A DNA stretch of 62,142 bases from a virus, in IMG/VR virus record IMGVR_UViG_3300042691_022332, positions 1 to 62,142 of that record. One strand, written 5' to 3'. Of this stretch, positions 600-10,758 are shown in pieces. The position numbers and the translations under genes are program-made. Under the pieces are notes generated by a model, which had not been told where the DNA came from, ran no database searches, and worked only from the letters and a program-made list of their open reading frames with translations. Within the stretch, counting starts at the first letter, position 1, and each line of letters begins with the position of its first letter.

Positions 600-1320
600 A
601 GTTGCAATATGCATCAGCGGTCAACTTCGTACTGGCATTCTTGGACACGATGTTTTTCGTAGATTTTTTGGCAGTTTAGGTAACTATGACGTTTTCTATC
701 ATACCTGGACGTTGAAGCCGGACGATAGTTTGAAATTACAGTCCCTGTATAATCCAATAAGATTTGTTGAAGAGCCTCCTATTGATGTAGTCGAAGTTGG
801 TAATTTTGGCAGTATGCTTTATAGCATAATGATGGCTAATGAATTAAAGAAACAACACGAGATTGAAAATAATTTTAGATATGATCTTGTTATTAAGACT
901 AGATTTGATTTAATTTTTCACGAACATGCAAGATTTCCATTAACACCAGTGCTTCCAAGAACAATATATAGTGCCGGTGGCAATGTAGGTATTAACAATA
1001 CAGACTATGAGCATCATGGTATCAGCGATTTAATTTTTTGGAGTGATAGTCAAAGCATGGATATTGCATCCAACACTTTTAGATATTACAAGTACACAGC
1101 ATTATATAATGATATCTTTCTTAAAGAAGGTGTTAAGATGGATGTCAGCGACTATTATTTAAGTCCTGGCACAATGATATATCAAAAGACAATAGAAAAA
1201 AATATTGCACATATTAGATGGGTCCAAGGCATTAATGAAATACCTTGGAGAGAAGATGTTGCGCACTTAGACCCAACACAAGATTACGATAAAATAAGAG
1301 ATAGATATGCCAAATTTTAA
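586..1320 (+). CDS. Putative glycosyltransferase (paralog of preceding gene)
   Basis: I chose the TTG at 586 as start because a strong AGGAGG lies six bases upstream (574-579); a GTG at 565 is in frame but has no comparable site. The protein is about 244 residues and begins KSGKVAICISGQLRTG, a nucleotide-binding-like beta strand and loop. It contains YDVFYHTW, then YDLVIKTRFDL near the middle. It shares the central block with the partial upstream gene, so the two arose by duplication. It overlaps the upstream gene by 14 bases. Function as a sugar transferase is inferred from resemblance and from the neighbouring nucleotidyltransferase and epimerase genes. Confidence 0.65.
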   Translation: MKSGKVAICISGQLRTGILGHDVFRRFFGSLGNYDVFYHTWTLKPDDSLKLQSLYNPIRFVEEPPIDVVEVGNFGSMLYSIMMANELKKQHEIENNFRYDLVIKTRFDLIFHEHARFPLTPVLPRTIYSAGGNVGINNTDYEHHGISDLIFWSDSQSMDIASNTFRYYKYTALYNDIFLKEGVKMDVSDYYLSPGTMIYQKTIEKNIAHIRWVQGINEIPWREDVAHLDPTQDYDKIRDRYAKF

Positions 1321-2125
1321 AAGATTAGTTGTCAGCGGAGATAGTTGGACTTACGGTAGTGAAATACGTGATCCTAAACTACCAGAGAGTGTTAAAGATT
1401 GGGACGAACCAAATGATAGTTATCGCTTGCCGAAAATTTGGCCTACAAAGTTGGGCAATCATATTGGTGTGGATGATGTTGTAAATCTAAGTTACCCTGC
1501 TGCCAGCAATGATAGAATTGTTAGAAATCTTGTAGGGTGGCTTACACAAGAATACCTTGCCCCTAAACGAGATACCAGTGAACTTTTTGTTGTTGTGGGA
1601 TTTACTAGTCCTGAACGTAAAGATTTTTACTACAGAAACATTAATAACAAATTTGAACATTTTTGGTACACGTTATGGCCAATGTGGAAGCATCGCTATC
1701 CCCAAGAGCCGTTAAATGAATTTGCTGATCTATATGCCGCATATATGTGGAATCCTGAAGAGTATGTGCATAGATATCTTCAGCAAGTATTTTATTTGCA
1801 AACATTGTTTAATAACTACGGCATTAAACACTTATTTTTCCAAGCATTTTATCAGCGTAACGATATGCACATTCGTCAGTGGACTGACGATCCTTACAAT
1901 AGACACTATCAAGGCCAGCCTGACGAGATGGTATGGAACATGATTGATTCTACTCGCTTTATGCACAAGGATGATAAAATTCACAGTTTCCACAATTATA
2001 TTGTTAATAAAGATACTAGTCCTGGACAAAAAGACAGTATTCTAAATATGCATCCTAGTGAACTAGGACATACTTGGTGGGCCGACCATATGTATGAGTA
2101 CGGCAAGGAAAATAAACTATGGTAA
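1307..2125 (+). CDS. SGNH/GDSL hydrolase-like protein
   Basis: A 272-residue protein with the SGNH block I motif near the N-terminus (VVSGDSWTYGSE, Ser13), an Asn-containing block (AASNDRIVRN) around residue 66 and a C-terminal HPSELGHTWWADH that can supply the catalytic His. SGNH enzymes are esterases or acyl-transfer enzymes that often act on acyl groups of polysaccharides. It is the first of three tandem SGNH-like genes (1307-3578) with overlaps of a few bases, and shares the nearly identical GDSWT(Y/H)G start and an FTSPER/WTSPER block with the third. There is no signal peptide, so it probably acts in the cytoplasm. The substrate is unknown. Confidence 0.65.
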   Translation: MPNFKRLVVSGDSWTYGSEIRDPKLPESVKDWDEPNDSYRLPKIWPTKLGNHIGVDDVVNLSYPAASNDRIVRNLVGWLTQEYLAPKRDTSELFVVVGFTSPERKDFYYRNINNKFEHFWYTLWPMWKHRYPQEPLNEFADLYAAYMWNPEEYVHRYLQQVFYLQTLFNNYGIKHLFFQAFYQRNDMHIRQWTDDPYNRHYQGQPDEMVWNMIDSTRFMHKDDKIHSFHNYIVNKDTSPGQKDSILNMHPSELGHTWWADHMYEYGKENKLW

Positions 2126-2895
2126 CAGAAGTCGCAATCTGCGGAGATAGTTTTGCTTGTGGATCTGGTATAGATACAAAATATTGCTTTGAAAGAAGTT
2201 TTGGAGCATTAGTTGCCGACTCGTTGGATGCATCTTATAAGATTTATGCACGTAGTGGTTGCTGTAACTATATTATCTATTTGCAAGTTCAAAAAGTAAT
2301 AGAAGATTATAAACATAAAGACAAACCTTTAGTATTAATATCAACTACTAACCATAGCAGGTTTACATTTCCGTCTGATCATGTTACCAAGTCGTATAAT
2401 AACTATACATTAGAAGATGTTGAATATGATTTGCATGAACCCTATTGTGACAGGGAAGGTTGGCACCGCAGGGATATACCTTTCAAACCTAGTAAGACAC
2501 CTAAATTAATAAGTGAGACTATTAGTAATTTCCTTCATTTTGCTTCAGGGGACGGTCCTAATCTTGCATACCTATTTAAAGATGTTGATACAAAATTTGC
2601 GGCTATAAAAACATTCTATGAAGAATTGTACGACGATTCGATTAAGCAAACAAATGATACTGGTCTTATTTTAATGATGCACGTAATGTTAAAAGAAGCA
2701 GGATTTCCGCATGTTATAATGTCCCCAGATCAGCATCAAAATAGATTTATTGGCAAAGAAAACTTCTTACAAAATGACTGGGGAGTTTATTCTCGCAAGT
2801 ATCCCGATAAAGGTAACAGCGGGCACTGTGACGAGCGAGGGCATGTCGAAGTAGCAGAAAAAATAATCCACCATATTGAAAGAATTGTATCGTGA
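2119..2895 (+). CDS. SGNH/GDSL hydrolase-like protein
   Basis: A 258-residue protein starting VTEVAICGDSFACGSG, with the GDS nucleophile motif at residues 9-11, an RSGCCNYII block in the second position and a C-terminal GHCDERGHVEVAEKI that provides the D-x-x-G-H catalytic pair. It overlaps the previous gene by seven bases and the next by four (GTGA), so the three are translated together. It is more divergent than its two neighbours, which share SPER and GDSWT blocks that are absent here. No signal peptide or membrane segment is visible. The role (deacylase or acyltransferase on a glycan or lipid intermediate) is inference. Confidence 0.6.
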   Translation: MVTEVAICGDSFACGSGIDTKYCFERSFGALVADSLDASYKIYARSGCCNYIIYLQVQKVIEDYKHKDKPLVLISTTNHSRFTFPSDHVTKSYNNYTLEDVEYDLHEPYCDREGWHRRDIPFKPSKTPKLISETISNFLHFASGDGPNLAYLFKDVDTKFAAIKTFYEELYDDSIKQTNDTGLILMMHVMLKEAGFPHVIMSPDQHQNRFIGKENFLQNDWGVYSRKYPDKGNSGHCDERGHVEVAEKIIHHIERIVS

Positions 2896-3578
2896 AATAT
2901 CTATATGCTAACGGAGATAGTTGGACACACGGCGATGAGATTCCTGATCGCAGTGATATGAATTCTGCCTCAACTCGTTATTACAATACATGGCCATGGT
3001 TCCTCAGCCAAAATTTAAACATTCCAGTATGTGTAAATGATGCACAAGGCGGCGCCAGTAATGCAAGAATATTTAGAAGGACCAACGACTTCATTAATAA
3101 TTGGATTGGCCAAGGTAAAGATTCTAAAGATCTATTCATATGCATAGGGTGGACCAGTCCTGAACGTTCAGAAGTAAGTAGCGGCCAAGGCATTTATAGT
3201 GTAACAGTACAGCATTGTCTTAAATTACATAACTTACCAGTTGATGAAAAATCTTTAAAAAAATACCACGAAGCATTTTATGAAAATTACACCGACAGTT
3301 ATGGAGAACATATCACTGCAATGTATATGATTAATCTGAGAACGCTCTGTAAAGGGCTGGGAATCAAGTATTATGATTTTGTTGCAGTAGGAGAACCCCC
3401 GTATCTATGGCAAGAAATAATTAAGAAAAAGTGGAATTTAGAAATAGAAGACATGTACTTGAAATCTTCATGGTTAGAACAAGTATGGAAAAATAATTGG
3501 CCAATTTATCAGTATAAGCATCCGACTATCGAAACGCACAAAATTTGGGCAGATGAACTTGCAAAGGAAATCAAATGA
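2892..3578 (+). CDS. SGNH/GDSL hydrolase-like protein
   Basis: Starts with GTG at 2892, sharing bases with the TGA of the previous gene (GTGA). The 228-residue product has YANGDSWTHGDE (Ser10 as likely nucleophile), GGASNARIFRR as the second conserved block, and KHPTIETHKIWADEL near the C-terminus. GDSWT and WTSPER match the first tandem copy, so copies one and three are closer to each other than either is to the middle one. It ends overlapping the nucleotidyltransferase gene by four bases, which ties SGNH chemistry to sugar-nucleotide activation. Substrate unknown. Confidence 0.6.
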   Translation: MKYLYANGDSWTHGDEIPDRSDMNSASTRYYNTWPWFLSQNLNIPVCVNDAQGGASNARIFRRTNDFINNWIGQGKDSKDLFICIGWTSPERSEVSSGQGIYSVTVQHCLKLHNLPVDEKSLKKYHEAFYENYTDSYGEHITAMYMINLRTLCKGLGIKYYDFVAVGEPPYLWQEIIKKKWNLEIEDMYLKSSWLEQVWKNNWPIYQYKHPTIETHKIWADELAKEIK

Positions 3579-4297
3579 ATATCATAATGGGACTATGTGG
3601 CGATGGTAGTCGTTTTAAAAATGTGGGTGTATCGTTGCCTAAGTTTTTAATGATATATAACGGCGCTCCTATGATTTATCATGCAGTTGAAACTATCAAG
3701 ATACCGGGAAAAATACATTTTGTTGTTAGAGAAGATCAATTATTAGAAAACAAACATTTAGAAAAATTGCTTCTTGGTCTCGGAGATGAAATTATAGTTT
3801 CAAAAGGAAGAACTCGAGGTGCTGCCGAAAGTTTATTGTTGGCAAAAAACTATATCAAAGATTTAAACGCTCCCATGCTAAGTGCTAATTGTGATCAATA
3901 TTTGTCATGGAATCCGTTTAATTTAACAGATCAAATGCAACGAGAACCTGATGTAAATTTTATTGTTACCTACAAAGAAACAAGTCCAAAATGTAGTTAC
4001 GTTAAGGAGCAAGCCGGATTCGTAGTAGAAGTACGGGAAAAACGGGTAATTAGTAATGATGCAACAATAGGATTTTATCATTGGGCACATACTCGTGACT
4101 TTTTTCAAGACGCCGAACAAATGATAGCAGAAGATCATAAAGAAAATGGCGAGTACTATGTTGCACCTGTTTATAATTATTCTATACAACGTGGCTTAAA
4201 AGTTAAAAAATATGCCATTGATAATGCTGAGTTTTGGCCAGTAGGTACACCAGACGACTTTATGCATTTTACCGGCAACACTGCATTTTTTGATTAA
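3575..4297 (+). CDS. Sugar-nucleotide (NTP transferase family) nucleotidyltransferase
   Basis: A 240-residue protein with the N-terminal signature of sugar-phosphate nucleotidyltransferases: GLCGDGSRF at residues 6-14 followed by LPKFL, in place of the common GxGxRxxPLT...PKPLL. A later LSANCDQYL resembles the metal-binding Asp segment. Family members join a sugar-1-phosphate (or cyclitol-phosphate) to an NTP, giving NDP-sugar and pyrophosphate. The protein is short, lacking the left-handed beta-helix domain of GlmU-type enzymes. It lies directly ahead of a cupin, a RuBisCO-like protein, a kinase and a cyclase, so it may activate the product of that pathway. The substrate is inference. Confidence 0.75.
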   Translation: MNIIMGLCGDGSRFKNVGVSLPKFLMIYNGAPMIYHAVETIKIPGKIHFVVREDQLLENKHLEKLLLGLGDEIIVSKGRTRGAAESLLLAKNYIKDLNAPMLSANCDQYLSWNPFNLTDQMQREPDVNFIVTYKETSPKCSYVKEQAGFVVEVREKRVISNDATIGFYHWAHTRDFFQDAEQMIAEDHKENGEYYVAPVYNYSIQRGLKVKKYAIDNAEFWPVGTPDDFMHFTGNTAFFD

Positions 4298-4298
4298 T

Positions 4299-4631
4299 AT
4301 GAAACACGCACACATTAAAGATTTTGTTAAAGGATGGTTCGTAGGAAACTTCGAACCAAGTTTGCTAAAAGCAGACTTTGAAGTAGGTGTTGCAAAACAC
4401 AAAGCGGGTGAATTTCACCAAGACCATTTTCACAAGAAAGCCATTGAGATTAATGTTGTTCTAGAGGGTAGAATGACCATCAACGGTGAAGAGTTTGGCC
4501 CTGGAGACATTTTTGTATTACACCCATATGAGGTAAGCCAAGCCGAATTTATTACTGATGTCACTGTGGTCATTGTAAGAGATCGCAGTGATCCTTCGGA
4601 CAAATATGAATTCGATATCATTGACAAGTAA
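4299..4631 (+). CDS. Small cupin-domain protein
   Basis: I start it at ATG 4299, one base after the upstream TAA, rather than the in-frame TTG at 4290. The ~110-residue protein has the two cupin motifs: HKAGEFHQDHFHKKAIE (metal-ligand His residues) and GPGDIFVLHPYEVSQAEF. Small cupins of this type act as sugar isomerases or epimerases, or simply bind sugars. The context between a nucleotidyltransferase and a RuBisCO-like protein suggests a sugar-phosphate or NDP-sugar substrate. Its last bases (TTGACA) form the -35 box of the promoter for the next gene. Confidence 0.8.
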   Translation: MKHAHIKDFVKGWFVGNFEPSLLKADFEVGVAKHKAGEFHQDHFHKKAIEINVVLEGRMTINGEEFGPGDIFVLHPYEVSQAEFITDVTVVIVRDRSDPSDKYEFDIIDK

Positions 4632-4649
4632 GTTTTAGGATAGTATAAT
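4621..4649 (+). promoter_or_regulatory. Perfect-consensus sigma70-type promoter, leaderless
   Basis: TTGACA at 4621-4626, a spacer of exactly 17 bases, then TATAAT at 4644-4649. Both hexamers match the bacterial consensus. The -35 box lies in the last codons of the cupin gene. A start seven bases after the -10 box falls on position 4656, the A of the RuBisCO-like ATG, so the transcript would be leaderless or nearly so. The only Shine-Dalgarno-like sequence (AAAAG at 4651-4655) would then be missing from the mRNA. The match is observed; the start point is inferred from usual spacing. Confidence 0.85.
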
Positions 4650-4655
4650 TAAAAG

Positions 4656-5795
4656 ATGAAACTCTATTATAACGAAGTGCCTTCGGGGCACTATACTGCT
4701 ACATTTTATATTGAAAGTAGTACCAATCTTGCAGACGCTTGCGAGGGAGTAGCCATTGGTCAGACTATCGGCAATCCAACAGTTCGCATACCAAAATGGG
4801 AAACTGAGGACCTAGTAGAAAAATATAGTGCTAAAATTATTGGAACAAGACAAGATTTAGAAACAAAAAAAGCAGGAACAGTTGTAATTGCTTTTCCTTC
4901 AGAAAATATTAACTGGGACAAAGACGGATTCAGTCACTTGCTTTGTGTACTCCTAGGTGGACAATGTGACATAGATACTATTACAAAATGTCATGTATTA
5001 GATATTGACGACTGCGGATTGATTCCTAAACTTGCACCTAAGTTTGGATTATCCGGTATTAGAGAATTTACAGGACAATATAACAAGCCGTTACTAGGAT
5101 GTATTCTTAAACCTAAAATTGGTTTAAATCCAACTGATTATGCAAGTATTGTTAAAGAGATGGTCGATGGTGGCGCTGATATTATCAAGGAAGATGAAAT
5201 CCTTGGAAGCCCACTATTCTGTAGTTTAGAAGACCGTCTTGAAATTGTTCGTAGTGTAATTGGCGATAAGAAAATTATATATCTTACTGCCATTAACGGT
5301 GACGCCAACACTGTGCTTGAAAAAGCACACACAGTCAGTGCCGCAGGTATCAATGGAGTTCACGTTAATGTGTGGAGTGGATTAGGCACGTATCGTGCAG
5401 TCCGTAAACAGAACTTGCCTGTTGCTATTCACTATCAAAAGAGTGGTGACAAAGCATTTACTCACGAGGGTAATGCTTATAGATTTAGTTGGTATGCCCT
5501 ATGCAAGTTGGCCGCATGGAGTGGTGTTGATACAATTCATGCAGGCATGTGGGGCTCCTATCTAAGTGACGATCCCGTTGAACTTAAAAGACTTATGGAC
5601 ATGTTGACAAGTCATAATGTTGTGCCTGCACTAAGTTGCGGAATGAATGCTACGCTGATTCCTAAAGTAACAGAAAAGTTTGGTGTTGATTATCTAGCCA
5701 ACGTAGGTAGTGCATGTCATAGTCATCCTGATGGTGTATATGCAGGTGTTAAAAAATTAAGAGATGCAATTGATGCAACAGGTAATCACGCTTAA
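4656..5795 (+). CDS. RuBisCO-like protein (form IV RLP)
   Basis: A 379-residue member of the RuBisCO large-subunit superfamily. Visible landmarks are LKPKIGL (Lys152 and Lys154, equivalents of spinach Lys175 and Lys177) and DIIKEDE (Lys178 as the carbamylated lysine; Asp180 and Glu181 as Mg ligands). His259 (VAIHY), His295 (DTIHAG) and Ser327 (PALSCG) occupy the positions of the other active-site residues. The Arg after the first His is Tyr260, and the loop-6 Lys334 has no counterpart in AGMWGSYLSDD, so carboxylase activity is unlikely. Such RLPs perform enolisation or isomerisation of sugar phosphates or DK-MTP-1-P. No methionine salvage genes are near; the neighbours handle sugars and cyclitols. 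The gene has its own perfect promoter. Confidence 0.9.
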   Translation: MKLYYNEVPSGHYTATFYIESSTNLADACEGVAIGQTIGNPTVRIPKWETEDLVEKYSAKIIGTRQDLETKKAGTVVIAFPSENINWDKDGFSHLLCVLLGGQCDIDTITKCHVLDIDDCGLIPKLAPKFGLSGIREFTGQYNKPLLGCILKPKIGLNPTDYASIVKEMVDGGADIIKEDEILGSPLFCSLEDRLEIVRSVIGDKKIIYLTAINGDANTVLEKAHTVSAAGINGVHVNVWSGLGTYRAVRKQNLPVAIHYQKSGDKAFTHEGNAYRFSWYALCKLAAWSGVDTIHAGMWGSYLSDDPVELKRLMDMLTSHNVVPALSCGMNATLIPKVTEKFGVDYLANVGSACHSHPDGVYAGVKKLRDAIDATGNHA

Positions 5796-6738
5796 AGGCG
5801 GCAGTCTTAATTCGACTTCATTACACATAGATGGAGATAAGAAATTTGTAAGAAAACTTATCTCCACTAGTGCTGATAGAGAATATGGATATGTACGCTG
5901 GTACAGTCAGTTAAAAAAATTACAAAGATTCAATGCACTAGTTCCAGGGTGTGTTCCCCAAGTGTATGATGCCGGTATTACAGAAGACGGAGCATACTTC
6001 GATATTGAATATATTGATGCAAAAGATATTAAAACATTATTTAAAGAAAATGCACTAACGCGATATCAGACAGAAAGGATGCATAAATCTTTGTGGTTTA
6101 CTTTTGATAGATTACACAGCCACAAGTACGCACCAAACGTTAGTAGTCTTAAACTTTACTTCCAGGAAGAAGTTCTGCAAAAACTCAATGATGCTAGACA
6201 GTTTCTAGAGTTTGAGCAGTTTTATAATTTAGATGTATATGTACATCAAGGCGAAACTTTTAGCGGAATTAAAAATAAAATTGAACAATTTTCTAAATTG
6301 TTTGATGAAGTAATTTCCTCCGAATGCTATGTACACGGTAATCCTACATTGGAAAATATTCTATACAATCCAGATACTGATAAAATCGTGTTCATAGATT
6401 TGTACGAAGAAGGCATAGTCGACAGTCAGTTTATGGATTACAGCCAAGTACTTCAATGTAGCAATAGTTTGTATGGTTTGCTCAATGACGGAGTTCTTAA
6501 AGTTAACGGCAATATTACAGATTTTTCTATAGATCCAGTCCCTGAAAATCTCATATATTTTAATGAGTTATTCAATGACGAATTAAAATACAGATATCCT
6601 GCTCACTATAAATTGGTAAAACTATTTGAAGCAACTCAATTTTTCCGTATGTTGCCTTTTAAATGCCATGCAGATAACATAGAAGCAGCCAAGTTTTTTT
6701 ACGCCCATGCTTGCAGTCTAGTAAATAGATTACTATGA
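5764..6738 (+). CDS. APH/choline-kinase-like phosphotransferase, catalytic Asp replaced
   Basis: A ~324-residue protein with the fold signature of aminoglycoside phosphotransferase-type kinases: an N-lobe with KKFVRK, a Brenner-type loop HGNPTLENIL at residues 191-200 and KIVFIDL with Asp212 as the metal-binding residue. The usual HGD catalytic aspartate is Asn193 here, while the second Asn (198) and Asp212 are kept. Activity may therefore be altered or lost. It overlaps the RLP gene by 32 bases (starts possible at 5764 or 5773) and the cyclase gene by four. In C7-cyclitol clusters a kinase acts on the cyclitol; here this is an inference from position. Confidence 0.65.
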   Translation: MQLMQQVITLKGGSLNSTSLHIDGDKKFVRKLISTSADREYGYVRWYSQLKKLQRFNALVPGCVPQVYDAGITEDGAYFDIEYIDAKDIKTLFKENALTRYQTERMHKSLWFTFDRLHSHKYAPNVSSLKLYFQEEVLQKLNDARQFLEFEQFYNLDVYVHQGETFSGIKNKIEQFSKLFDEVISSECYVHGNPTLENILYNPDTDKIVFIDLYEEGIVDSQFMDYSQVLQCSNSLYGLLNDGVLKVNGNITDFSIDPVPENLIYFNELFNDELKYRYPAHYKLVKLFEATQFFRMLPFKCHADNIEAAKFFYAHACSLVNRLL

Positions 6739-7799
6739 CATGGCGTGTAAAAACTTCTCTTCCTATAGAATTTGAAATCAACAAAGTTCCTGATGCCCTA
6801 GACTTTTGGGTAATTCCAGGTCAGCGTCGTATTGCAATCGTTGATCAAATAGTGTATAATCTATATAAGGAAAGAATTCCCAAAGGTGTAGAATTATTCA
6901 TTATTGAATCTACAGAAGCCGAAAAACATTGGGCAAATGCAGAACGTGTATTGGCATTTTTTGAAGAGAAAAATGTCTTACGTAGAAGTGAACCTATTAT
7001 TGCAATAGGCGGTGGTGTACTATTAGATTTAGTTGGTTTTTGTTGTAGCATTTATCGCAGAGGTATTCCGTATGTTAGAATCCCTACAACATTGTTAGCC
7101 ATAGTCGACGCCAGTGTAGGTGCTAAGACTAGCATTAATCATTTTGGTCGTAGAAATCGTATTGGTAGTTTTTACCCTCCTGTGCAAACTCTTATTGATA
7201 CGAGTTTTATAAAAACACAGGACCGTAGGGAAATTTCCAACGGTATGGCAGAAATATTAAAGTTGGCAATTGTATTAGATCATCGTCTTTTTGAAATGAT
7301 GGAACTGGCTCCTCATCAGTTGTTAACACAGAAATTTCAAAATCTTGCTTTAGCAGATCAAATTATTGATCGTGCAATCACTGGTATGACGCAAGAGTTA
7401 AATGATAATCTGTGGGAACGAAATTTAAAACGACCAGTAGACTTTGGACATAGTTTTAGTCCAGTAGTTGAAATGAAGAATGTGCCCAACTTATTACACG
7501 GTGAAGCAGTTATTTTGGATTGTTTGTTGAGCAGTTGCATAAGCAATCTTAGAGGATATCTGTCCAACGAAGAGTTAGAACGTATTTTTACAGTAATTAA
7601 AAATTGTGGACTTGCTACAGAACACGAAGATTTTTATAACGTTGATTTATTATGGAGTGGTTTAAAAGACGTAATGAATCATAGAAATGATAATCAGTAT
7701 TTGCCTATACCTACTAGTATAGGACGTTGTGAAATTATCAACGATGTTACTTATAGCGAGATTCAACAAGCAACACAGAGATTAAAGAGTTTACAATGA
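6735..7799 (+). CDS. Sugar phosphate cyclase, sedoheptulose-7-phosphate cyclase type
   Basis: A 354-residue member of the 3-dehydroquinate synthase superfamily. NAD-binding GGGVLLDLVGF is at residues 92-102 and IPTTLLAIVDASVGAKT at 115-132. The Zn ligands are Glu173 (NGMAEILK), His239 (VDFGHSF) and His255 (LLHGEAV). DHQ synthases carry VGGKT and an (A/S)GxAE(V/I)IKYG segment. VGAKT, NRIGSFYPP and EILKLAIVLD instead match the sedoheptulose-7-phosphate cyclases (2-epi-5-epi-valiolone synthase and desmethyl-4-deoxygadusol synthase). These enzymes make C7 cyclitols from sedoheptulose 7-phosphate. Four-base overlaps join it to the kinase upstream and the dehydrogenase downstream. The subfamily is inferred from motifs; a 2-deoxy-scyllo-inosose synthase is the main alternative. 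Confidence 0.8.
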   Translation: MTWRVKTSLPIEFEINKVPDALDFWVIPGQRRIAIVDQIVYNLYKERIPKGVELFIIESTEAEKHWANAERVLAFFEEKNVLRRSEPIIAIGGGVLLDLVGFCCSIYRRGIPYVRIPTTLLAIVDASVGAKTSINHFGRRNRIGSFYPPVQTLIDTSFIKTQDRREISNGMAEILKLAIVLDHRLFEMMELAPHQLLTQKFQNLALADQIIDRAITGMTQELNDNLWERNLKRPVDFGHSFSPVVEMKNVPNLLHGEAVILDCLLSSCISNLRGYLSNEELERIFTVIKNCGLATEHEDFYNVDLLWSGLKDVMNHRNDNQYLPIPTSIGRCEIINDVTYSEIQQATQRLKSLQ

Positions 7800-8470
7800 A
7801 AACAGTAGTTATTACAGGAACAAGTAGAGGACTAGGCCTATCCATTGCTAAGAAGTTTATCAATGCAGGATGGCATGTTATTGGGTTGGGTAGAACGGCC
7901 CCTGACAAATTAGAAAATTATACGCATTACACAGCAGACATTGCGAATATGAGTCAAGTTTTTTCTACGTTCGATACCATACGTAAAACTAAAACTAATA
8001 TTGATTTGTTAGTTAATAACAGCGCGGCATTCCATGCCGGGTCGTTTGACACACTGGAGTACATTGATATCTGCACAATAATAGATACTAATGTTAAAGG
8101 TACAATGTATGTGACCATGGAAGCATTAAAATCCATGACCGCGGGTAGTAGAGTTATTTTTATTAATAGTGTCGCTGGCATTAGAGAAATACAAAATCAA
8201 AGTTTGTATTGTGCTAGTAAAGCCGCATTGAAAAGTTTTGCTGGCATTATTGGACAAGAACTACGCAGTAGAAAAATCAAAGTTTCTAGCATTCATCCCG
8301 GCGGCATCAATACCACATTGTGGAATGAACAAAATCCGTATCCATGTGGTCGTGCAGAAGATGCACTAGATCCAAACATAGTTGCTGATGCAGTATTTCA
8401 TATTGCAGAAGTTCCACACAATACAGAGATTAAAACAATTACAATGTTCCCAGAAGTGGAGTGGCACTAA
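7796..8470 (+). CDS. Short-chain dehydrogenase/reductase (SDR)
   Basis: A classical SDR of 224 residues. It has TGTSRGLG near the N-terminus for NAD(P) binding, LLVNNSA (the NNAG position), a catalytic Ser in FINSVAG, and YCASKAA with the catalytic Tyr and Lys. It starts inside the end of the cyclase gene (ATGA overlap), so it is probably translated with it and may reduce or oxidise the cyclitol ketone made by the cyclase. The C-terminus is slightly shorter than in typical SDRs (240-260 residues). Family assignment is firm; substrate is inferred from context. Confidence 0.88.
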   Translation: MKTVVITGTSRGLGLSIAKKFINAGWHVIGLGRTAPDKLENYTHYTADIANMSQVFSTFDTIRKTKTNIDLLVNNSAAFHAGSFDTLEYIDICTIIDTNVKGTMYVTMEALKSMTAGSRVIFINSVAGIREIQNQSLYCASKAALKSFAGIIGQELRSRKIKVSSIHPGGINTTLWNEQNPYPCGRAEDALDPNIVADAVFHIAEVPHNTEIKTITMFPEVEWH

Positions 8471-9165: not shown

Positions 9166-10099
9166 GTTCGGACAGCGAACTATGCTGGATCGTCCCTTAT
9201 TCAACACTAGTTGGATACTGGGACGTTTTTGTAATTACAACTGTAGTTACTGTTGGCCTTATGCTCGTAGTGATAAAATTGATCACCAACCGCTTGAAGT
9301 ATATAAAACTACAATAGACAATATCAAGAGTCAAGCACGAGCCAACGGATTTAATCAGTTCCATTGGTCGTTCAGCGGAGGCGAACCTACCGCTTATAAA
9401 CAGTTACTAGATCTAGTAAAACATCTAGACGAAACAGAAAGTAGTTATCAGAGTATTCATATGACTACTAATCTAAGTCCTGGATCGAAATGGTGGAACA
9501 CCTGGTGTACTAATACATCACTGTTACAACGTAGAAGTATTACAGCATCTTTCCATGATGAGTTTGCCAAGGAGCAAGAGTTTGGAGACAAGTGTTTACA
9601 GTTAATGTATGAACTTGTTCATGTAACAGTTAATCAAGTTATGGTTCCTGAAAAGTTTTATGAACTATACGAGAGAATGGAACGTTTTCATAAACGTGGT
9701 ATTAACGTAACACTAAAACCGCAAAGCGACCCTACTGCTAGTGGTATTGTAGATGGCTACACTGAAGATATGATTCACAAGATGCAAACAGGATTTCCAC
9801 AAAGATCCAACGGCGAAGACATTTATCAAATTGCGTTATACGATGATAAAAAGGAATACTTATTTGATCAAGCAGAACGCTTTAATGCGTTTGGATTTAA
9901 TAAATTTACAGATTGGACTTGCAATGCAGGATATCAAAGTGTTATAATAAGAGGTACAGAAGTTAAACGAAGTTATAGTTGTCATGATCAATCATTGGGC
10001 AATATATTAACAGGGTTTGATTTGTTTGATACTCCTAAAAAATGTATTACTCCTAGTTGTGTTAGCAGTGCAGATAGTAAAATACCAAAAAGAAAATGA
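9125..10099 (+). CDS. Radical SAM enzyme with SPASM-like C-terminal cysteines
   Basis: CNYNCSYC gives Cys36, Cys40 and Cys43 (numbered from ATG 9125), the CxxxCxxC that binds the SAM-cleaving 4Fe-4S cluster; SFSGGEPT is the SAM-binding GGE motif. Further cysteines at the end (WTCNAGY, SYSCHD, KKCITPSC) look like an auxiliary cluster domain of the SPASM or twitch type. The start is uncertain: ATG 9125 overlaps the previous gene by 41 bases, and ATG 9182 would still leave the Cys motif intact. It resembles the enzymes at 22929 and 27411. Substrate unknown; such proteins modify peptides or small molecules by radical chemistry. Confidence 0.85.
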   Translation: MNSFQDIPFQKIVKFGQRTMLDRPLFNTSWILGRFCNYNCSYCWPYARSDKIDHQPLEVYKTTIDNIKSQARANGFNQFHWSFSGGEPTAYKQLLDLVKHLDETESSYQSIHMTTNLSPGSKWWNTWCTNTSLLQRRSITASFHDEFAKEQEFGDKCLQLMYELVHVTVNQVMVPEKFYELYERMERFHKRGINVTLKPQSDPTASGIVDGYTEDMIHKMQTGFPQRSNGEDIYQIALYDDKKEYLFDQAERFNAFGFNKFTDWTCNAGYQSVIIRGTEVKRSYSCHDQSLGNILTGFDLFDTPKKCITPSCVSSADSKIPKRK

Positions 10100-10758
10100 A
10101 TAGACTAATAGTATTTGGATGTTCTTTAGCCTACGGAGTAGGGTTGAAGGATTGCTGGCCAAACGCTATTAAACCTAGTAAACTAAGTTGGCCACAATTA
10201 GTTGCAGACGTAATGGGTCGAAAATTAATTAATAAATCAGCACCGGGGTCATCTAATAAACGAATATGGTACACACTTAGCAAATTTAAATTTAAACCGG
10301 ATGATATTGTTATAATTTCATGGACGTTTCCTAACAGACATTCAATTATTAGTTCTCCGTGGAAAGTACATGATTTACATCATAATCTTATCGACACTGA
10401 TGTTTCTTCGGAATCATATTTTAAAGACATATACTCTACGTACGATTCTTACATTACATCTAAGTTGTTAATAGATCATGCAAATAGATTGTTATTAGAA
10501 AAAAATATTACTACACATAATTTAATAGTTGAAAAATACTTTAAACATGTAATGGGCGACTATAAGGTACTCCCGTTATATATGGGTGTATACGAAGAAC
10601 TTTATCCTAGAGCGTTAGATGGTGATCATCTAGGACAAGAAGGACATACAGCATTTGCAAGAGATTTACTAAATGCAATTGGTATTAAGCATAATGTAGT
10701 TAGTAATACTAAACCTTACAGTTTTTTTAAACAATTAAAGAATTTAATATGCAAATAG
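10096..10758 (+). CDS. SGNH hydrolase-like protein with GCS in place of GDS
   Basis: A 220-residue protein starting NRLIVFGCSLAYGVG. The SGNH block I normally reads GDS; here the Asp is Cys while the nucleophilic Ser is kept. APGSSNKRIW (block II-like, with Asn) follows, and DGDHLGQEGHTAFA near the C-terminus supplies the Asp-His pair. It is the fourth SGNH-like protein of the island and sits directly after a radical SAM gene (ATGA overlap). Role inferred as acyl-group hydrolysis or transfer; substrate unknown. Confidence 0.6.
   Translation: MNRLIVFGCSLAYGVGLKDCWPNAIKPSKLSWPQLVADVMGRKLINKSAPGSSNKRIWYTLSKFKFKPDDIVIISWTFPNRHSIISSPWKVHDLHHNLIDTDVSSESYFKDIYSTYDSYITSKLLIDHANRLLLEKNITTHNLIVEKYFKHVMGDYKVLPLYMGVYEELYPRALDGDHLGQEGHTAFARDLLNAIGIKHNVVSNTKPYSFFKQLKNLICK

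Follow-up and report, generated by a model that had tools for sequence, protein, structure and literature searches.

A probable merger of a RuBisCO-like protein module and a C7-cyclitol cassette around one nucleotidyltransferase gene in uncultured phages

Known C7 cyclitols include those of antibiotics and of animal sunscreens. The validamycin and acarbose clusters (ValA/AcbC) are among the closest described counterparts of the locus presented here, a block of six same-strand genes in an IMG/VR virus record (IMGVR_UViG_3300042691_022332; all 62,142 bases are called the window below). The block encodes a nucleotidyltransferase (NT), a cupin, a RuBisCO-like protein (RLP), an APH-like protein, a cyclase of the 3-dehydroquinate (DHQ) synthase superfamily and a short-chain dehydrogenase/reductase (SDR). 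Our preferred reading, to which we give a probability of about 0.66, is that two biosynthetic modules have merged here around a single NT.

As in the validamycin and acarbose clusters, a cyclase of the 2-epi-5-epi-valiolone synthase (EEVS) type, with all tested ValA fingerprint residues, shares one operon with kinase-like, SDR and NT genes. The viral cassette differs in being virus-encoded, in having an APH-like instead of a ROK kinase and in that no aminotransferase or pseudoglycosyltransferase was found within it. Operons of sedoheptulose 7-phosphate (SH7P) cyclases on rhizobial plasmids (A. vitis, L129; R. rhizogenes, L130) also place a kinase after the cyclase, with an SDR in the former, but theirs hold a ROK kinase, an MDR and a sugar isomerase, and no NT or RLP is listed there. 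For the RLP, MtnW (the DK-MTP-1P enolase) and OiaX share the fold and the KxDE carbamate/metal site, whereas the phage protein forms its own clade with a long stem and stands in a glycan-type context. Form III RuBisCO is the best structural match (2d69, TM-score 0.87 to an AlphaFold2 model of pLDDT 90), yet the phage equivalents of Lys334, His294 and Asn123 are replaced and there is no sign of a carboxylase. The aquatic, uncultured and uncharacterised form IV "IV-GOS" RLPs of ocean metagenomes (PMC10173188) are possibly the same clade.

Neither phage kit appears to have been described previously. No phage record in INPHARED matches the RLP by tblastn up to E = 1, and none there holds an EEVS-type cyclase above ~33% identity; PHROGs has no family matching the RLP or the cyclase. 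In open-access full text, no paper joins a phage with an SH7P cyclase, and nothing specific on viral RLPs was found.

Gene order and the proposed division into modules

The block consists of six consecutive open reading frames (ORFs) at 3575-8470:

3575..4297, + strand, NT of the sugar-1-phosphate type (PF00483, E 1e-4), of the RLP-module NT clade; first gene common to both proposed modules
4290..4631, + strand, cupin with conserved HxH + Glu, conserved start ATG 4299; pairs with the RLP
4656..5795, + strand, RLP of a distinct clade (PF00016, RuBisCO_large 4e-33)
5764..6738, + strand, APH/fructosamine-kinase-like protein, putative cyclitol kinase (PF01636, 2e-6)
6735..7799, + strand, SH7P cyclase, EEVS type (DHQ_synthase 6e-36; best PDB match 4p53, ValA, 5e-76)
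7796..8470, + strand, SDR oxidoreductase, final gene of the cyclitol cassette (PF00106 adh_short, 8e-38)

The NT starts inside the preceding stop codon (ATGA), the cupin overlaps the NT, the kinase overlaps the RLP by at most 32 nt (with a conserved kinase start at ~5776), and 4-nt overlaps join kinase to EEVS and EEVS to SDR. A preliminary description of this DNA had reported consecutive genes with overlapping starts, which holds except for the RLP: its start, 24 nt after the cupin, is the single non-overlapping one. The arrangement is not due to chance, since its order is preserved in many viral contigs, and the genes are under purifying selection (dN/dS against relatives, where dS could be computed, is 0.03-0.15 in most gene pairs and 0.2-0.3 in the most diverged pairs).

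Because 55 viral NT-kinase-EEVS cassettes lack both RLP and cupin, and because NT-cupin-RLP occurs without a cyclase in more than 50 other viral contigs, the RLP appears to be a separate module and not a cyclitol step. The exchange of cupin and RLP within the EEVS lineage, between clusters that are nearly identical otherwise, points the same way. Here the place between NT and kinase is taken by either of two RLP types, only ~50% identical. Relative to the loci L023, L019 and L018, the window has a nucleotide identity of 84-90% in the NT and 84-91% in the kinase, against 70-75% in the cupin and 57-58% in the RLP; relative to L003 the pattern is reversed (cupin 86%, RLP 85%, NT 67%, kinase 74%). 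Exchange of the cupin thus goes with that of the RLP and is independent of the cyclitol genes. The preliminary description had counted cupin and RLP among the cyclitol-pathway steps, an assignment for which we find no support, given these cassettes, the swapping of the pair as a unit and the cyclase-free sets found in bacteria and in the majority of viruses with an RLP. Given the position of the pair, with an NT of the RLP-module type before it and the kinase after it, both branches would probably feed one common activated-sugar step for surface or virion glycans.

The viral cyclitol cassette and its cyclase

A profile scan of IMG/VR, seeded with viral and bacterial EEVS sequences, gave 108 viral relatives, the best 80 of which were fetched; 74 newly fetched loci were examined. 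The order NT-APH-EEVS-SDR is present in 53 of them, and in two more the contig stops short, leaving NT-APH-EEVS; none of these 55 cassettes contains an RLP or a cupin. An RLP directly precedes the kinase in 14, and the remaining loci are cut off. The SDR follows the EEVS immediately in 71/74 loci, and the modal overlap between cassette genes is 4 bp. A search of 12 whole EEVS-only records with an RLP profile, which recovered the RLP in 8/8 known-positive genomes, found none (0/12) that encodes one, including a 146-kb contig that bears a T4 gp23 capsid gene and a terminase. The phage C7-cyclitol-type cassette first proposed in the preliminary description is therefore supported, both by the tree and residues of the cyclase and by the kept gene order, which was indeed recovered in many related viral contigs. 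NT-APH-EEVS-SDR is a compact recurring viral kit, its probable product being an activated C7 cyclitol.

Is the cyclase an EEVS or one of its relatives? After ValA, its closest PDB profile matches are a DDGS structure (2e-57) and DHQ synthases (4e-42). In a maximum-likelihood tree, the viral cyclases form one clade (100/100) within the SH7P-cyclase group, beside ValA, Streptomyces and rhizobial SH7P cyclases and DDGS; this group is split from the DHQ synthases at 99/95, so that the viral proteins do not branch with true DHQ synthases, and support within it is insufficient to order the EEVS and DDGS lineages. At the ValA positions that separate the families, the viral residues are EEVS-like (M263, L267, N270, D281, P288, D307 and H360), all of these positions distinguishing EEVS from DHQ synthase in the alignment and 267, 281 and 360 also distinguishing it from DDGS. 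We take D281 and H360 to be the EEVS fingerprint sites in the numbering of Kean et al. 2014; the difference itself is visible in the alignment. Both are present in 73/73 viral homologues (D236 and H316 in the window). Two fingerprint sites distinguish EEVS from DDGS (eLife paper, PMC4426668), and DDGS was rejected for the viral cyclase, which does not carry the Ala/Thr fingerprint. A 3-dehydroquinate synthase (AroB) was likewise rejected, with 211 of the 305 bits required by TIGR01357, D and P in place of the DHQ synthase Asn and His at ValA 281 and 288, and the position in the tree. From tree and fingerprint residues the cyclase is thus of the EEVS type and not a DHQ synthase. It is ~40% identical to bacterial enzymes and, in the alignment, the viral cyclases keep the equivalents of E213, H284, H300, K171, K216, N175 and N181; the only fixed departure noted at a conserved site, in all 73, is K180 to Arg.

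Two viral "EEVS" matches without RLP (L241 and L262) were excluded from the counts for their DHQ synthase-type residues. In the first of these, a HAD-NT fusion, a different, DHQ synthase-like cyclase and an SDR follow one another at 603-3863 and make up a second, independent NT-cyclase-SDR arrangement.

In the proposed first module, the EEVS would turn host SH7P into 2-epi-5-epi-valiolone, a conversion that we regard as likely. The APH-like protein may then phosphorylate the cyclitol, for which the odds are about even, and the SDR could reduce the ketone, which is rather more probable. The NT would join the cyclitol phosphate and a nucleotide, and a phage glycosyltransferase would use the resulting NDP-cyclitol; nucleotide activation by the NT is a reasonably likely step.

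The RuBisCO-like protein and its module

The fold and the KxDE carbamate/metal motif place the RLP in the RuBisCO superfamily as a form IV protein. Its clade (support 100/99, stem of 1.5 changes per site) lies outside the MtnW-like RLPs and form III. In alignments, where phosphate-site residues are retained along with the carbamate/metal motif, it keeps the equivalents of K175, K177, the carbamylated K201, D203, E204, H327, S379 and G381, whereas those of K334, H294, R295, N123 and T173 are replaced; a Tyr at the loop-6 Lys334 position is invariant in 20 RLPs, and Gln stands at the His294 position. A true RuBisCO (carboxylase) was rejected on the loss of Lys334 and His294, and the scores for MtnW/OiaX fall short of the NCBIfam equivalog cut-offs (129.5 of 409 and 115 of 700 bits). 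Since the catalytic residues are kept and the other five replaced, the predicted active site is compatible with chemistry of the enolisation type on a phosphorylated ketose, and with no carboxylation. The cupin has a weak Pfam match as a single sequence and a clear one as a profile (HxH..E). A frameshift, possibly an assembly error, breaks the RLP gene in contig L005 (10001-11112), which is identical otherwise; the window, L001 and L002 have the gene intact.

A close RLP was found in 77 viral contigs, and an NT adjoins it in 72, the other 5 being at contig ends. Most of these contigs have the cupin between the two genes, and 58 loci have a GDPD-like phosphodiesterase with HRG/EN/ExD/LGHD motifs (best PDB profile match a glycerophosphodiesterase, 9e-5). 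A reciprocal IMG/VR scan seeded with the cupin returned 79 loci, with RLP in 71, NT in 78, GDPD in 53 and EEVS in 13. Seeding with the GDPD gave NT in 71/80 loci and RLP in just 5/80, so that NT-GDPD appears to be a general core for sugar activation that is combined with various precursor-making enzymes, RLP-cupin among them; the NT-GDPD pair is apparently an undescribed viral glycan core. In these loci the NT is often a HAD-phosphatase fusion, or is accompanied by genes for a KdsC-like phosphatase and a PfkB-like kinase (names from sequence inspection). Pairs of GDPD-like and NT genes, often with the HAD-NT fusion, are very common in viral contigs (L236-L315; at least 479 GDPD relatives).

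The RLP-module set occurs, whole or in part, in SAR11, an alphaproteobacterium, Patescibacteria, Elusimicrobia, Verrucomicrobia, Bacteroidota and nano-sized archaea (DPANN). Annotated bacterial neighbours of the NT, cupin, RLP and GDPD genes include O-antigen ligase, glycosyltransferases, RmlA, a dehydratase and DegT. An origin of the block in a SAR11 host was rejected, as the RLP is present in 2/247 Pelagibacterales (SAR11) genomes and no close EEVS was found in SAR11 genomes, where the best matches are AroB and a fused DDGS-branch protein. The latter, of 582-587 aa in genomes L145-L149, contains a DDGS-branch sugar phosphate cyclase, apparently as a fusion, with Ala at ValA 281 and Lys at 360.

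The proposed second module (GDPD-like, NT, cupin and RLP) would make another unusual sugar phosphate: the RLP would enolise, isomerise or decarboxylate a ketose phosphate in a Mg-dependent reaction, the cupin would act as an isomerase or epimerase, and the NT would activate the product. Production of a separate sugar phosphate by RLP and cupin seems somewhat more likely than not. A surface or virion glycan is the destination that gene context suggests for the products, again with better than even chances.

Rival readings and phage context

The NT has 4evw as its best PDB profile match (1e-35), followed by M1P-GTase, RmlA and HddC, and matches phrog_3980, of unknown function. In the NT tree it falls within the RLP-module clade, and most EEVS-only phages have a distant sister NT (branch 2.4; hhalign 99.8%). 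Several points weigh against the merger and the chemistry proposed for it. The distant sister NT leaves acceptance of a cyclitol by the window NT as a prediction, although the RLP-less cassette L331 carries an NT of the window type, which favours acceptance. The catalytic-loop Asp of HGDxxxxN is replaced by Asn (HGNPTLEN) in 70/70 motif-bearing homologues of the APH-like protein, which thus lacks the Asp that marks an APH-type small-molecule kinase; a profile search of the PDB with this protein gave no match, and Foldseek gave a weak fold match to APH(3') (2e-7, at low TM). It may be a kinase of an unusual kind or else a conserved pseudokinase, and because every homologue scored has Asn, the phosphorylation step is uncertain and possibly absent or different. 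Pfam annotation beside the cassette, where the search was made and not genome-wide, identified no dedicated pseudoglycosyltransferase, and recognised no aminocyclitol enzymes either. The cyclitol and sugar-phosphate activities of both modules are themselves predicted.

If RLP and cupin instead acted on the cyclitol, for example by enolising or epimerising EEV phosphate, the six genes would be one pathway, with dedicated C7-cyclitol steps in this lineage. Such a pathway would account for the tight coupling of the genes, with RLP and cupin nested in the cassette in 14 loci, and for the NT of the same clade beside EEVS alone in the IMG/VR locus L331. We consider it unlikely, as the RLP is dispensable in most EEVS cassettes, cupin-RLP and NT stand together with no EEVS in bacteria and in the majority of viral RLP loci, and the interchange of ~50% identical RLPs within the same EEVS cluster suggests a common function independent of EEVS. 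The two remaining alternatives concern the product, and both are very improbable. EEVS and SDR, with a neighbouring methyltransferase, could make a gadusol-like UV protectant instead of a sugar nucleotide: fish make gadusol by EEVS and an oxidoreductase/methyltransferase (PMC4426668), and a methyltransferase lies near the cassette in some EEVS phages. It is not a constant neighbour, however, the MT-Ox is a fused enzyme, and the constant partners, NT and kinase-like protein, have no role in the gadusol route. T4 glucosylates its own DNA, and several contigs are T4-type (gp23), so the activated cyclitol or sugar might go onto phage DNA and not onto a surface glycan; the surrounding phage genes, however, resemble glycosyltransferases and methyltransferases of the surface-glycan type, and in bacteria the homologues of the RLP module have O-antigen/capsule surroundings.

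Phage genes in the window are a T4-type B-family DNA polymerase, thymidylate synthase and DHFR, these three in its right half, and HNH; the closest named records to the polymerase are the very large Sinorhizobium phage Phosso and Agrobacterium phage Atu_ph07 (47-50% identity). Bacterial contamination was rejected on these genes and on gp23 and terminase in one EEVS-only and several RLP-only contigs. Left of the block lie:

3-599 (open at 5') and 565-1320, + strand, two tandem ORFs of one family with a weak DUF7796 match; family near the RLP module in 45 loci

A DUF7796 gene also directly precedes the NT in most EEVS-only cassettes. To judge from contig L005, which is near-identical and has it at 4759-5193, the GDPD-like gene belonging to the RLP module is ~150 nt outside the window, on the left. 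The block is flanked at 1307-3578 and 10096-10758 by several proteins of SGNH/GDSL-like or DUF6071 type, and related genes likewise stand upstream of the NT in the EEVS-only virus L370. The region 9107-34471, which separates the cyclitol block from the replication genes, encodes at least 7 radical-SAM proteins and two Asp/Asn beta-hydroxylase-like genes.

A wider proposal, which we hold tentatively and at slightly less than even odds, is that the RLP clade catalyses a reaction new to the RuBisCO superfamily, yielding an unusual sugar phosphate that is NT-activated for glycans, and that phages add a C7-cyclitol branch and so make their own carba-sugar nucleotides. If the cassette does what its genes predict, its presence in ~70 uncultured viral contigs would mean that phages make pseudo-sugars, perhaps recoating their hosts or virions. 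The RLP module, as a defined gene set (NT, cupin, GDPD) extending from phages to SAR11 and DPANN, would offer a route to the function of an orphan RuBisCO-like clade.

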